Part shown: positions 3,823 to 13,938 of the stretch, piece by piece | Layout of the letters: the number at the start of each line of letters is the position of its first letter | Numbering within the stretch: the first letter of the stretch is position 1 | Source of the DNA: Woeseiaceae bacterium | GTDB lineage: Bacteria > Pseudomonadota > Gammaproteobacteria > Steroidobacterales > Woeseiaceae | Length of the DNA stretch: 64,000 bases | Assembly: GCA_021773135.1 (NCBI GenBank) | Contig: JAJFKP010000051.1 | Coordinates: forward strand, 124,001-188,000 | Direction of reading: 5' to 3' | Translations under genes and position numbers: made by a program | Notes under the pieces: generated by a model | Databases searched by the model: none | The model's input: only the letters and a program-made list of their open reading frames with translations | What the model was told of the DNA's origin: nothing

Positions 3823-4248
3823 CTAGAACAACGACATTGTGATCTCTAATACCGGATTCACTGACAGCCAGAGCCCGTAAACGCCCGCAACGAGTGTGAG
3901 CAAAGCGGTGCCGCCCGCCCCGATCAACCGCCCGATGTGCGCCATATTGTCGTGCTTCAATCCAATGGCATGTGCAATTCTTGAAATGATCAACAGGTCA
4001 CCGACGATTAACAGAAACGTCGATGAGCCGCCGTTTGCCTCGATCGCCCCGAAGACAATCATGAAAATCGGCACATATTCGAGAAAATTCTGGTGGCGCC
4101 TGACTTTTTCGGCAAGCTCCATATTCGGCGGGTCGCCAAATAATATCGATGCGCCTGATTTTCCCCTGGTCGCTCCTGCGCTGAAGCTCAACACCAAAGC
4201 GAAGATTGCGAAAATACTCGCGTACATGAGTGTTATTGGGATCTGCAT
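3823..4248 (-). CDS. MAPEG family membrane protein
   Basis: A 141-residue protein with four predicted membrane helices. It has the MAPEG hallmarks: RGKSGAS and FGDPPNMELAEKVRRHQNFLEYVPIFM (conserved R-x-x-N-x-x-E-x-x-P block) and a later SRIAHAIGL. Eukaryotic MAPEG members conjugate glutathione or make eicosanoids; bacterial members are mostly uncharacterised glutathione-transferase-like proteins. The start at ATG 4248 is supported by AGGAG six bases upstream; a longer upstream extension in frame has no family similarity. It is transcribed away from hipBA, so the region 4249-4527 is a divergent control region shared with the toxin-antitoxin operon. Confidence 0.85.
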   Translation of the reverse strand: MQIPITLMYASIFAIFALVLSFSAGATRGKSGASILFGDPPNMELAEKVRRHQNFLEYVPIFMIVFGAIEANGGSSTFLLIVGDLLIISRIAHAIGLKHDNMAHIGRLIGAGGTALLTLVAGVYGLWLSVNPVLEITMSLF

Positions 4249-4354
4249 TGCACTCTCCTGTTTTTTTCGCTCATTGTACGCCGAGAATGAATTCGCCAGG
4301 TCTGCACATACGTGTCGCCGGGAAGTCCAAACGTGAAAAAACGGAGCTTTTCCT

Positions 4355-4524
4355 ATCAAACATGATATATTTATTAAGTATTTTGACTAAGACAATCATT
4401 TTTGATTGTTTTTCGGACTGACCACTGGTAACCGTGTTCAGTCCATATTAGACTTGCAGCTTGTAATAGTCGATCATTAATGATTGATTATTAAGTTTAG
4501 AACCGTTTTTCTATCATATGTGAT
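4355..4524. promoter_or_regulatory. Four-copy ATCA-N4-TGAT operator array upstream of hipBA
   Basis: Four palindromes of the form ATCA-N4-TGAT occur at 4355-4366, 4395-4406, 4473-4484 and 4513-4524. Start-to-start spacings are 40, 78 and 40 bases. The last copy ends 3 bases before the hipB ATG, so bound protein would block initiation. Between copies two and three lies an inverted repeat GGACTGA-N16-TCAGTCC (4415-4444). HipB-type antitoxins are known to bind several palindromic operators in front of their own operon. The assignment to this HipB is inference from position and repetition. Confidence 0.7.
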
Positions 4525-4527
4525 CTT

Positions 4528-4860
4528 ATGAAAATCGATGAATTGAGCCCTGAAACCGCAATTCTCAGCGAACTCGGCAGGCGCCTCGCCCGCGTGCGTA
4601 AGCAGCAGGGATTCACACAGGACCAGCTGGCGTCGATGGCCGGCATCGGCGTCGCGACGCTGCGTCGAATTGAGGGTGGACAGGATGGCCATATGGAGTC
4701 CTGGATCAAGGTCCTCAAAGCGTTGAATATGTCGCAGTCCATTGATGCCCTATTGCCGGAGAACTTCAGCTCACCCATGGCCGATGTTCTGGACACGAAT
4801 CGGCATCGCCGGCGACATACCAGGTTACCCGGGAAGGTCTGGGGAGATGAAGCTACGTGA
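4528..4860 (+). CDS. hipB: HipB-like XRE-family antitoxin
   Basis: A 110-residue DNA-binding protein. Residues about 13-70 form an XRE helix-turn-helix: LGRRLARVRKQQGFTQDQLA, then MAGIGVATLRRIEGG as the recognition helix region. A C-terminal tail of about 35 residues after LPENF is basic and probably disordered; E. coli HipB is shorter (88 residues). Its stop overlaps the next start (GTGA), showing translational coupling with hipA. By family knowledge it neutralises HipA and represses the operon. The four palindromes just upstream are its likely binding sites. Confidence 0.88.
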   Translation: MKIDELSPETAILSELGRRLARVRKQQGFTQDQLASMAGIGVATLRRIEGGQDGHMESWIKVLKALNMSQSIDALLPENFSSPMADVLDTNRHRRRHTRLPGKVWGDEAT

Positions 4861-6155
4861 CCACCGCGACGGTTCGCCTGTGGGGCACCACAATTGGCTA
4901 CGTCTCGATGACCGAACAGGAACGATTTGCGCGGTTCGAATACGATCCTGATTTCGTCGACCTGGGAATTGAACTTGCACCACTGGTCATGCCTCTGAAG
5001 GCGCGCCACATTTATCAGTTTACCGAGCTGCATCCGCGGAGTTTTTACGGGCTTCCCGGCCTCCTGTCCGACAGTATTCCCGACAAGTACGGCAACAGGC
5101 TCATTGATGTCTGGCTGGCACAGACCGGACGCAAACCAGACAGTTTCAATGCTGTTGACCGCCTGTGTTACACGGGCGTGCGCGGCATGGGTGCGCTGGA
5201 ATACGAACCGTCCGCCAGCAATGTATCGACAGAAGACAAGCGCCTCGAAGTCCAGGAGCTGGTCGAACTCGCGGCACTCGCTTTCGCCAGTAAAGATGCC
5301 ATCAGGACCAACGTTGCCGAGGCAACCAGCGAACAGGGCTTGCTGGATATCCTGAGCGTCGGCACCTCGGCAGGTGGCGCACGCGCTAAAGCCGTCATTG
5401 CGTTCAACCCGGACACACTCGAGGTTCGCTCCGGGCAGTCAGAATTGCCTACAGGCTTCGAGCACTGGCTGATCAAGTTCGACGGCGTTGAATTCAGTGG
5501 CGACTGGGGCGTCGCTGACCCGGCGGGTTACGGCTTGCTCGAGTACAGCTACTACCAGGTTGCCAGGGAGTGCAACATCGAGATGATGGAGTGCCGCCTG
5601 CTTGCCGAGAATGGCCGCAACCATTTCCTCACGCGGCGATTCGACCGTGATGCTGACGGCGGCAAAAAATTCGTACAGACGCTTGGCGCCATAGCGCATT
5701 TCGACTATTGGGAAAGTGGCTTCTATTCCTATGAACAACTCTTTATGACCATGAAGCGGCTGGGTCTGCCCATGTCCCAAATCGAAGAACAATTTCGACG
5801 CACCGTATTCAATATCGTCGGCTGCAACCAGGACGATCACGTCAAGAACGTCGCTTTCATCATGGACCGGCAGGGACATTGGAGCCTCTCCCCGGCATAC
5901 GACCTTTGTCATGCGGAAGGCAGTGACTTCACGCGTTTTCACCAGATGAGCATCAACGGAAAAACGACAGGCTTCACCACCAGCGATCTGAAACACCTGG
6001 CCGAATATGCAGGACTGCCGCGCGGTCGAGAGAAACAGGTTATCCAAACGACAGTTGCCGCGTTTACCAAATGGCAGGCGTTGGCAAAAGACCTTGGCAT
6101 ACCGGAAGCATTGCAGAAACACGTAACCGGCACGCTGCGTCTGAAGTGGCAATGA
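4857..6155 (+). CDS. hipA: HipA-like serine/threonine kinase toxin
   Basis: A 432-residue HipA-family kinase. It has the N-terminal coupling domain (to about residue 110, with SFYGLPGLLSDSIPD typical of HipA), a glycine/serine loop VGTSAGGARAKAV near 168-180, a nucleotide-binding lysine in WLIKFD (K207), the catalytic segment NIVGCNQDDHVKN (319-331), and the metal-binding SPAYDL (D349). HipA of E. coli phosphorylates glutamyl-tRNA synthetase and induces persistence; the target of this branch is not known. All key residues appear present, so the toxin looks intact. It starts with GTG overlapping the hipB stop. No defence or mobile genes flank it. Confidence 0.9.
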   Translation: MTTATVRLWGTTIGYVSMTEQERFARFEYDPDFVDLGIELAPLVMPLKARHIYQFTELHPRSFYGLPGLLSDSIPDKYGNRLIDVWLAQTGRKPDSFNAVDRLCYTGVRGMGALEYEPSASNVSTEDKRLEVQELVELAALAFASKDAIRTNVAEATSEQGLLDILSVGTSAGGARAKAVIAFNPDTLEVRSGQSELPTGFEHWLIKFDGVEFSGDWGVADPAGYGLLEYSYYQVARECNIEMMECRLLAENGRNHFLTRRFDRDADGGKKFVQTLGAIAHFDYWESGFYSYEQLFMTMKRLGLPMSQIEEQFRRTVFNIVGCNQDDHVKNVAFIMDRQGHWSLSPAYDLCHAEGSDFTRFHQMSINGKTTGFTTSDLKHLAEYAGLPRGREKQVIQTTVAAFTKWQALAKDLGIPEALQKHVTGTLRLKWQ

Positions 6156-12540: not shown

Positions 12541-13938
12541 ATGGCTATTTCAACATTTGATCTGTTTACGATCGGCATAGGGCCGTCCAGTTCCCACACG
12601 GTGGGCCCGATGCGGGCGGCGTGCACGTTTGCTACCAAGCTGCGCGATCACAACCTTCTGGATGATGTCAAAAGCGTCTCCGTAAGGCTCTACGGCTCAC
12701 TCGGCGCCACGGGACGCGGCCACGGCACAGATAAGGCGGTCATTCTCGGGCTCGAAGGGGAACTTCCGGAAACAGTTGACGTAGTCGGCATTCCGGAGCG
12801 AATGGCGAAAATTGAGGAACGTCAGCAGATTAATCTCCTTGGTTCGCATCAAGTGGCTTTCAAGCCTCGGGAGGCCCTGGTTTTCGAAAAACGCGAGTCC
12901 TTGCCGGGCCATCCAAATGGCATGCGTTTCAGCGCGCTGGACGAAAGTGGCAACGAACTCATTGCGCGAATCTACTATTCCGTAGGTGGCGGTTTTGTAG
13001 TCAACGAAAACAGCACGGATGATCCCGTGATTACTGAATCCGAAGTCGACCTCCCCTACCCGTTCGAAAGCGGCGAGGAGCTTCTCAGACTTTGCAATGC
13101 CAACAACCTGTCAATCAGTGACCTGATGTTGCAAAACGAATTGGCCTGGCGCGATGAGGCAGCTATTCGGTCGCAGCTACTCGACATCTGGCACGCCATG
13201 CAGGAGTGTGTCAAAAGGGGCTGCCAGGACACCGGGGTAATGCCGGGCCTTAAGGTCAAGCGGCGCGCGGCGGGCCTTTATGCACAGCTAGCCAGTCAAC
13301 CCGAAGCGGCGCTGAGAGATCCGCTGACGATCATGGACTGGGTCAACCTCTATGCACTTGCCGTGAATGAGGAAAATGCTGTTGGCGGACGAGTTGTTAC
13401 GGCACCGACCAACGGGGCGGCCGGAATCATCCCTGCAGTTCTGCATTACTTTGTAAGATTCTGCCGTGGGGCCGATGACGACGGTGTCGTCCGATTTTTG
13501 CTGGTGGCAGGAGCAATCGGCCTGCTCTTTAAACGAAACGCATCCATCAGCGGTGCCGAGGTTGGCTGTCAGGGCGAGGTGGGGTCCGCGTGCTCAATGG
13601 CCGCCGGCGGATTGACGGAGGCACTCGGCGGGAGTCCCGAGCAGGTGGAAAACGCTGCAGAAATTGCAATGGAACACAACCTTGGTCTCACCTGTGACCC
13701 GATCGGCGGACTGGTACAGATCCCCTGCATAGAGCGCAATGCCATGGCATCGATCAAGGCGATCAATGCATCACGACTGGCAATGCGCGGTGACGGGCAG
13801 CATTTTGTTTCGCTCGACAAAGTCATTCAGACGATGCGTGAAACCGGCAGGGACATGCAGGACAAATATAAGGAGACGTCGCGGGGCGGACTGGCAACGA
13901 ACGTCATCGAAGTGCCGGTCAACTTTATCGAGTGCTAG
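12541..13938 (+). CDS. sdaA: L-serine ammonia-lyase (iron-sulfur L-serine dehydratase)
   Basis: A 465-residue single-chain type II L-serine dehydratase, converting L-serine to pyruvate and ammonia. It begins [20 protein letters not shown], the classic N-terminal signature with the SSSHT substrate motif. The catalytic domain has [16 protein letters not shown]. Cysteines for the oxygen-labile 4Fe-4S cluster are in [13 protein letters not shown] and [14 protein letters not shown]. The last residue is cysteine (NFIEC), which in the Legionella enzyme acts as a tail reaching the active site. Length matches SdaA (about 455). It lies alone, divergent from the peroxidase gene. Confidence 0.96.

Follow-up and report, generated by a model that had tools for sequence, protein, structure and literature searches.

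The window analysed here is the whole 64,000-nucleotide stretch of a Woeseiaceae bacterium genome (contig JAJFKP010000051.1, positions 124,001 to 188,000), and the element in question is an array of four ATCA-N4-TGAT palindromes in front of its hipBA toxin-antitoxin operon. From sequence comparison, we consider it likely that the array is an autoregulatory operator on which HipB dimers would be paired at 40-41 bp over a bent linker, with a probable HipA bridge. The safest reading is that HipB dimers on these sites would repress hipBA. The parts of the array, none of which is assigned to a strand, are as follows.

4355..4366, operator site 1 of the distal pair, ATCAAACATGAT; exact match, in a distal pair that is conserved in relatives
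4367..4394, linker of the distal pair; A/T in phase with the helix in the relatives' alignment
4395..4406, operator site 2 of the distal pair, ATCATTTTTGAT; exact match, dyad 40 bp from that of site 1
4407..4472, stretch between the pairs; of variable length in relatives (site-2-to-site-3 distance 35 to 124 bp)
4473..4484, operator site 3 of the proximal pair, ATCATTAATGAT; exact match
4485..4512, linker of the proximal pair; A/T in phase with the helix in the relatives' alignment
4513..4524, operator site 4 of the proximal pair, ATCATATGTGAT; exact match that occupies the Shine-Dalgarno place, three bases 5' of the ATG

Exact matches to ATCA-N4-TGAT were found at 4355, 4395, 4473 and 4513, as the original prediction had them, and these four are the only ones in the window; their spacings of 40, 78 and 40 bp are mirror-symmetric. 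The last copy was said to abut the hipB ATG, which is nearly right: its last base is 4524, and the first base of the ATG is 4528. All four lie in an AT-rich intergenic stretch of 279 bp (4249-4527), with a MAPEG gene (minus strand) on one side and hipBA (plus strand) on the other. By number alone the sites in the window are unremarkable: the shuffle mean was 1.54 and four were reached in 7 of 100 shuffles, and when one mismatch was allowed there were 29 matches versus 27.4 expected. What is remarkable is their clustering. Among 20,000 dinucleotide shuffles of the intergenic stretch, 19,727 contained no site, 271 contained one, 2 contained two, and none contained three or more. A genome-wide count, proposed earlier as a check, gave 109 exact single sites in the bacterium's own genome (4.55 Mb), about one per 42 kb, but only two exact pairs at 40/41 bp, both in the array. 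A wider regulon was not indicated, since an exact 40/41-bp pair occurred nowhere else in that genome.

Conservation of the array in near relatives

Seventy non-redundant loci, the window included, combined a HipA of at least 64% identity with a hipB gene upstream (the near loci), and at least two sites were present in 69 of them. The array is very probably a HipB operator, judging from this conservation upstream of homologous hipBA, and in that respect the original prediction held. In the 250 bp 5' of hipB, the 70 loci contained 239 sites at no more than one mismatch (shuffle mean 20.8, maximum 31). With exact half-sites, the N4 spacer gave 134 sites and each other spacer from 0 to 13 gave 0 to 4. 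The sites are larger than first reported, because the consensus of the near relatives, MK-ATCA-YWWR-TGAT-MK (226 paired site entries), is a palindrome that spans 16 bp. By record title the near loci came from Pseudomonadota (47; 29 Gammaproteobacteria and 18 Alphaproteobacteria), Planctomycetota (12) and records without a phylum name (11); most records were titled as metagenome-assembled genomes, and single taxon assignments may be wrong.

The typical layout of a near locus was two pairs, each of 40-41 bp. Inter-site distances of 40 bp occurred 34 times and of 41 bp 70 times (shuffle mean for both 0.05, maximum 1), and the next commonest distance, 98 bp, occurred 12 times. Both pairs were present in 44 of 70 loci at the thresholds of the analysis, with an inter-pair gap of 35 to 124 bp.

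Each site might instead be bound by a HipB dimer independently, and the 40-41-bp spacing would then reflect promoter layout only, with site 3 over the -10 and site 4 over the start-codon region. The position of the last site agrees with this, as 56 of 60 near loci have its start at -15 relative to the hipB ATG (-14 in 2, -12 in 2; loci with no more than one mismatch), and in some relatives a -10 element does overlap site 3. With no spacing imposed, however, 40 or 41 bp accounted for 49 of the 62 distances among sites upstream of -60, where the distance to the gene is variable, as well as for 52 of the 62 among sites from -60 on. The same spacing was found with unrelated operator letters, and independent binding would not predict the A/T phasing of the linkers (both described below). 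We regard this alternative as improbable.

Four loci (L058, L060, L068 and L073) had an additional one-mismatch site at about -44 from hipB, 12 bp from site 3.

Operator spacing in more distant relatives

Relatives with HipA near 50% identity had another HipB recognition helix and other palindromes: GVATLRRIE was the helix of the near group, and KRTVERIE-like or R[SR]TxTRL-like helices were found in the others. The expectation that homologous hipB loci would carry the motif was thereby borne out in the near loci (69 of 70), but not in these relatives. Both tests by which the original prediction could have failed, equal frequency of the motif across the genome and its lack at homologous loci, were run, and the reading was not refuted.

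The spacing was kept where the letters changed. TCG-N10-CGA sites numbered 38 in 9 loci and formed 14 pairs spaced by 40 bp and 2 by 41 bp (shuffle mean 0.02); layouts in this clade were 40/46/40 (L005 and L007), 40/54/40 (L106) and 40/50/41 (L105). ATGC-N12-GCAT sites numbered 31 in 10 loci (no more than 2 mismatches), with 9 pairs at 41 bp (shuffle mean for 40 and 41 bp 0.05). These two motifs were counted in the same loci where they had been found, and therefore pairs of like palindromes at any spacing were also scored without a motif. In the clade of the window's HipA, 110 of 127 loci scored at 40/41 bp upstream (shuffle sum 3.3): 62 of 70 near loci, 20 of 21 from the order, 6 of 9 with TCG sites, 8 of 10 with ATGC sites, 7 of 9 others and 7 of 8 from plasmids. 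The order and plasmid loci, 27 of 29 of which scored, had been fetched after the 40/41 idea. The same score was reached by 6 of 127 and 3 of 127 loci inside hipA and by 7 of 107 farther upstream.

Thirteen of the 127 loci scored at 27/28 bp. In the near loci this score was obtained in 11 of 70 (shuffle 1.8), a seeming exception that was taken as background from sites at varied distances, because nine arbitrary spacings averaged 11.2 of 127 upstream. The E. coli clade behaved differently in the motif-free test, with 28 of 30 loci scoring at 27/28 bp (shuffle sum 0.9) versus 0 of 30 at 40/41 bp; the 28 had been expected from K-12 beforehand, and the 27 was read from the data. In a HipA tree of 107 rows, one fully supported branch had 64 rows labelled 40 (13 unlabelled) on one side versus 28 labelled 27 (2 unlabelled) on the other. 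In that tree the near group was L001 plus 20 randomly drawn loci, K-12 was labelled by hand, 15 of the 107 rows were unlabelled, and L137 was not among the rows. The two clade sets were collected by likeness to two distant queries, and the HipA clades between them are unsampled. Since the 40-base spacing outlasts the site letters in related operons, the comparison suggests that spacing is set by the protein complex.

Two observations were made on the arrangement of other loci. L119-L142 belong to the E. coli clade, and their HipAs are about 40-46% identical; here the operators 5' of hipB formed evenly spaced arrays, at 27, 54 and 81 bp, versus 28/39/28 in K-12. On a Bacteroides plasmid (L171, 2569-3039), a second helix-turn-helix (HTH) and HipA-family gene pair followed the first in tandem.

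A/T phasing of the linkers

Measured from the first dyad, A/T content in the ATCA and TCG groups peaked at about 0, 10, 20, 30 and 40 bp and dipped at about 14-16 and 24-26 bp. In 113 near-group pairs the middle of the linker had an A/T fraction of 0.86. The mirror position outside the pair had 0.58, and the position half a turn away had 0.39. The corresponding values were 0.70, 0.39 and 0.26 in GC-rich contigs, and 0.87, 0.64 and 0.50 in the TCG clade. The p-values for linker A/T are optimistic, as related loci are not independent; the effect persisted with one pair per locus. No clean 10-bp A/T pattern was obtained for the E. coli clade in the linker analysis. Phasing of this kind is the pattern expected of bent DNA with A/T minor grooves turned inward, and from it we infer bending. 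The presence of phased linkers in two clades with unrelated operator letters indicates that the DNA shape of the linker is constrained.

Promoter and translation start

TATCAT, a possible sigma-70-like -10 element, overlaps site 3 in 29 near loci. In 11 of these 29, all of them relatives and not the window, the -35, mostly TTGAAA, beat 95% of shuffles. A weight-matrix promoter scan was not taken as evidence by itself, because it lacked a separate control and the top mean scores lay at -4 and -16, in or beside site 4; the shuffle control added later covers the -35 only.

In the window (4513-4530), hipB apparently has no Shine-Dalgarno sequence, because the last operator occupies its place. Of the 66 near loci in which the start codon falls at the aligned position, 1 had a Shine-Dalgarno-like sequence (GGAG, GAGG or AGGA) there. 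Two loci whose records are titled Spirochaetia and Spirochaetales (L106 and L110) have their operator pair shifted upstream by about 23 bp, and a GGAG Shine-Dalgarno sequence stands between the pair and the hipB ATG.

The position of site 4 in the Shine-Dalgarno region and the single Shine-Dalgarno-like sequence among 66 loci would suit repeats that act as hairpins in the RNA leader, close to the start codon. No stable fold was predicted for 4473-4560, however (z = 0.81; 162 of 200 shuffles folded at least as well), and neither symmetry nor spacing is different in the distal pair, which would stand 5' of the promoter predicted in 11 relatives. Hairpins were rejected as a candidate, and we leave them hardly any chance. 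A leaderless hipB transcript, suggested by the overlap of site 4 with the Shine-Dalgarno region, was also dropped for the near group, because the supported -10 over site 3 in 11 relatives implies a leader of about 45 bases. L109, with a TATAAT that ends 7 bases 5' of the ATG, could have such a transcript.

Proposed mechanism

Under the autoregulatory reading, each 16-bp palindrome would bind one HipB dimer, as suggested by their co-inheritance and by the match between recognition helix and operator letters. Because of the spacing and the phasing, two dimers are placed about four helical turns apart over a bent linker: dimers on sites 40-41 bp apart would form a unit, presumably on one face of the DNA, and the linker between them would be bent with A/T-rich minor grooves inward about every 10 bp. 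By analogy with the 28-bp spacing of E. coli, contact between HipA molecules on the two dimers would probably span the linker, which would make binding cooperative and keep HipA inactive. The proximal unit would cover the promoter or start-codon region and turn transcription off, and the distal unit would be a second unit of the same kind, more loosely placed.

Looping or wrapping of the DNA had been suggested in the original prediction. Wrapping or bending received indirect support from the phased linker A/T. A DNA loop made by contact between the two pairs, which would be an addition to the autoregulatory operator and not its opposite, seems to us rather doubtful. Gap phasing was found after collapse to 29 HipB clusters (<75% identity), with p = 0.008 and a mean phase of 0.54 turn, and a 46-bp gap is recurrent in the TCG clade. 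On all 44 loci with both pairs, however, the same phasing gave p = 0.16, the gap varies between 35 and 124 bp, and 26 of the 70 near loci are without one or both pairs at the thresholds used.

Several results weigh against the proposed operator in its full form. One or both pairs are missing in those 26 near loci, and one near locus (L039) is without any site. The motif-free background upstream exceeds that of shuffles, as the 11.2 of 127 at nine other spacings indicates. No convincing promoter was found in the window: the consensus scan matched once, on the minus strand, against 1.1 matches expected by chance, and the best candidate of the weight-matrix scan was weak. The -35 at site 3 was no better than chance in 18 of the 29 relatives with TATCAT. 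The fitted A/T period was 9.0 bp in near loci with 40-bp pairs, 9.75 bp in those with 41-bp pairs and 9.75 bp in the TCG clade, over a linker of only about two cycles, so that "10 bp, four turns" is an approximation. The inter-pair gap phasing is ambiguous, and the HipA bridge is proposed by analogy with E. coli.

A broader idea, for and against which we find the balance even, is that hipBA systems have a clade-specific DNA ruler. In the clade of the window's HipA, operator pairs of any letters would stand four turns apart over a phased, bendable linker because two HipB-HipA complexes clasp and wrap the DNA by a HipA-HipA contact other than that of E. coli. If so, operator spacing would be a readable record of the quaternary structure that keeps the toxin inactive. 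If a second HipA clade has a different, equally strict spacing and a bent linker, promoter DNA alone would reveal the architecture of the complex. Were the strict spacing and bent linker to hold, the cooperative contact would be testable by shifting the sites a few bases.

Locus, genes and the divergent neighbour

The genes and the coding feature of the locus are listed below.

4528..4860, plus strand, hipB; 110 amino acids, XRE/Cro-type HTH antitoxin, presumed repressor
4648..4674, plus strand, HipB recognition-helix region GVATLRRIE, residues 41-49 (helix 42-49 in the model)
4857..6155, plus strand, hipA; 432 amino acids, HipA-family Ser/Thr kinase toxin
3823..4248, minus strand, divergent MAPEG-family gene (MAPEG 3.8e-16); a neighbour, not a conserved part of the system

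As in a type II toxin-antitoxin hipBA module, an HTH antitoxin gene lies directly 5' of a HipA-family kinase gene, and the HipA fold (in the predicted model) and the conserved kinase residues are present. The hipB product matched the Pfam families HTH_31 (8.7e-10) and HTH_3 (9.6e-8) and was 32% identical to E. coli HipB over 60 amino acids; its predicted model (mean predicted local distance difference test, pLDDT, 81) resembles XRE regulators and HipB structures. Across 69 near-group HipBs the residues of the recognition helix were G41 in 69, V42 in 65, A43 in 68, T44 in 69, L45 in 63, R46 in 65, R47 in 69, I48 in 63 and E49 in 69. The hipA gene starts with GTG, and its start overlaps the end of hipB. 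Its product matched HipA_C (4.7e-43) and Couple_hipA (1e-16) and was 22% identical to E. coli HipA over 203 amino acids; the predicted model (mean pLDDT 76) matches the HipA structures of Shewanella and E. coli, with template modelling (TM) scores of 0.69 for 2wiu_A and 0.68 for 4pu5. G169, S171, G173, G174, N324, D326, D327, H328, N331 and D349 were invariant in 32 aligned HipAs, and we infer kinase roles for them.

That the palindromes serve another regulator, or the MAPEG gene that the original prediction thought might be co-regulated, is very unlikely. The array does sit between divergent genes, and the promoter-like match on the minus strand (9/12; 1.1 expected by chance) overlaps site 1. 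The sites, however, accompany hipB in loci whose names belong to two phyla, and MAPEG does not: no MAPEG gene was found at any other fetched hip locus (tblastn E 1e-3; flanks there about 0.2 to 2.5 kb), which leaves co-regulation without comparative support. The site letters also change together with the HipB recognition helix. The FNR-type box has the consensus TTGAT-N4-ATCAA; at no more than one mismatch it matched the window at 12839 and 56418 and was absent at the array.

Loci and counting rules

HipA relatives were searched in 107 genomes of the family (32 with a match; 30 loci taken), in 346 genomes of the order (118 with a match; 30 loci taken) and in a genome collection, from which the best 80 of 430 were used. 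Plasmids (629 records; 8 fetched) and phages (5 records) were also searched, and every best match there was <60% identical. The E. coli-clade set was 30 fetched loci. Near duplicates (L032, L033, L049, L051 and L080) were dropped before counts, as were L092, L099 and L100, which had no upstream stretch with hipB, and L143, which was identical to L031 over 1,101 bases. L027-L030 (HipA <35%) were not scored. L019, L024 and L026 gave no tblastn HipB hit and were kept in the motif-free test, which needs the hipA start only. No two of the 87 far loci were >90% identical in the 500 bases 5' of hipA.

Comparison with known hip systems

Nothing was found in the literature on ATCA-N4-TGAT hip operators or on a 40-41-bp spacing, in a search that covered few subscription papers. 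In Legionella hipBST (O1-O3), as in the window, there are several conserved HipB operators with letters unlike those of E. coli (PMC10653801). Unlike the window, Legionella has three sites at even intervals, with gaps of 53 bp and repeats of six bases, and its operon is tripartite. The promoter repeats of Caulobacter crescentus hipBA1 and hipBA2 are described as having E. coli-like intervals (PMC7029023), whereas the window operon has 40-bp pairs. Caulobacter HipAs are placed with that of E. coli in clade I of the 2021 Hip Tree, which lists experimentally analysed modules only in clades I, III and X (PMC8262856).

For E. coli, two papers report that HipB binding is cooperative, with HipA as a co-repressor, and that the HipB-HipA complex bends the operator by 70 degrees (PMC3920265, PMC3376134). 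A third describes the HipA toxin as part of an assembly that occupies its own promoter; hipA7 is believed to disturb HipA dimerisation in promoter complexes, and loss of this dimerisation is believed to favour persistence (PMC7029023). Titles in the Protein Data Bank include HipB-O1-O2 and HipA-HipB-O2-O3 complexes.

The hipBA operon of E. coli K-12 has four TATCC-N8-GGATA operators (O1-O4) with spacings of 28/39/28. The letters of the array in the window differ, as predicted: no TATCC-N8-GGATA was found at up to 2 mismatches between 2355 and 9874, the intergenic region included. The distance of the half-sites from the dyad and the intra-pair spacing (40 bp in the window, 28 bp in E. coli) differ as well, and the 27-28-bp spacing of neighbouring E. 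coli-type operators does not occur among the 40/78/40 spacings of the window. The "new operator class" of the original prediction is upheld in these respects and not in its mirror-symmetric four-site plan, as both operons have four palindromic operators, in two mirror-symmetric pairs, 5' of an XRE-type hipB. The two-pair plan is already present in E. coli, and it is the letters and the spacing of the array that are new.
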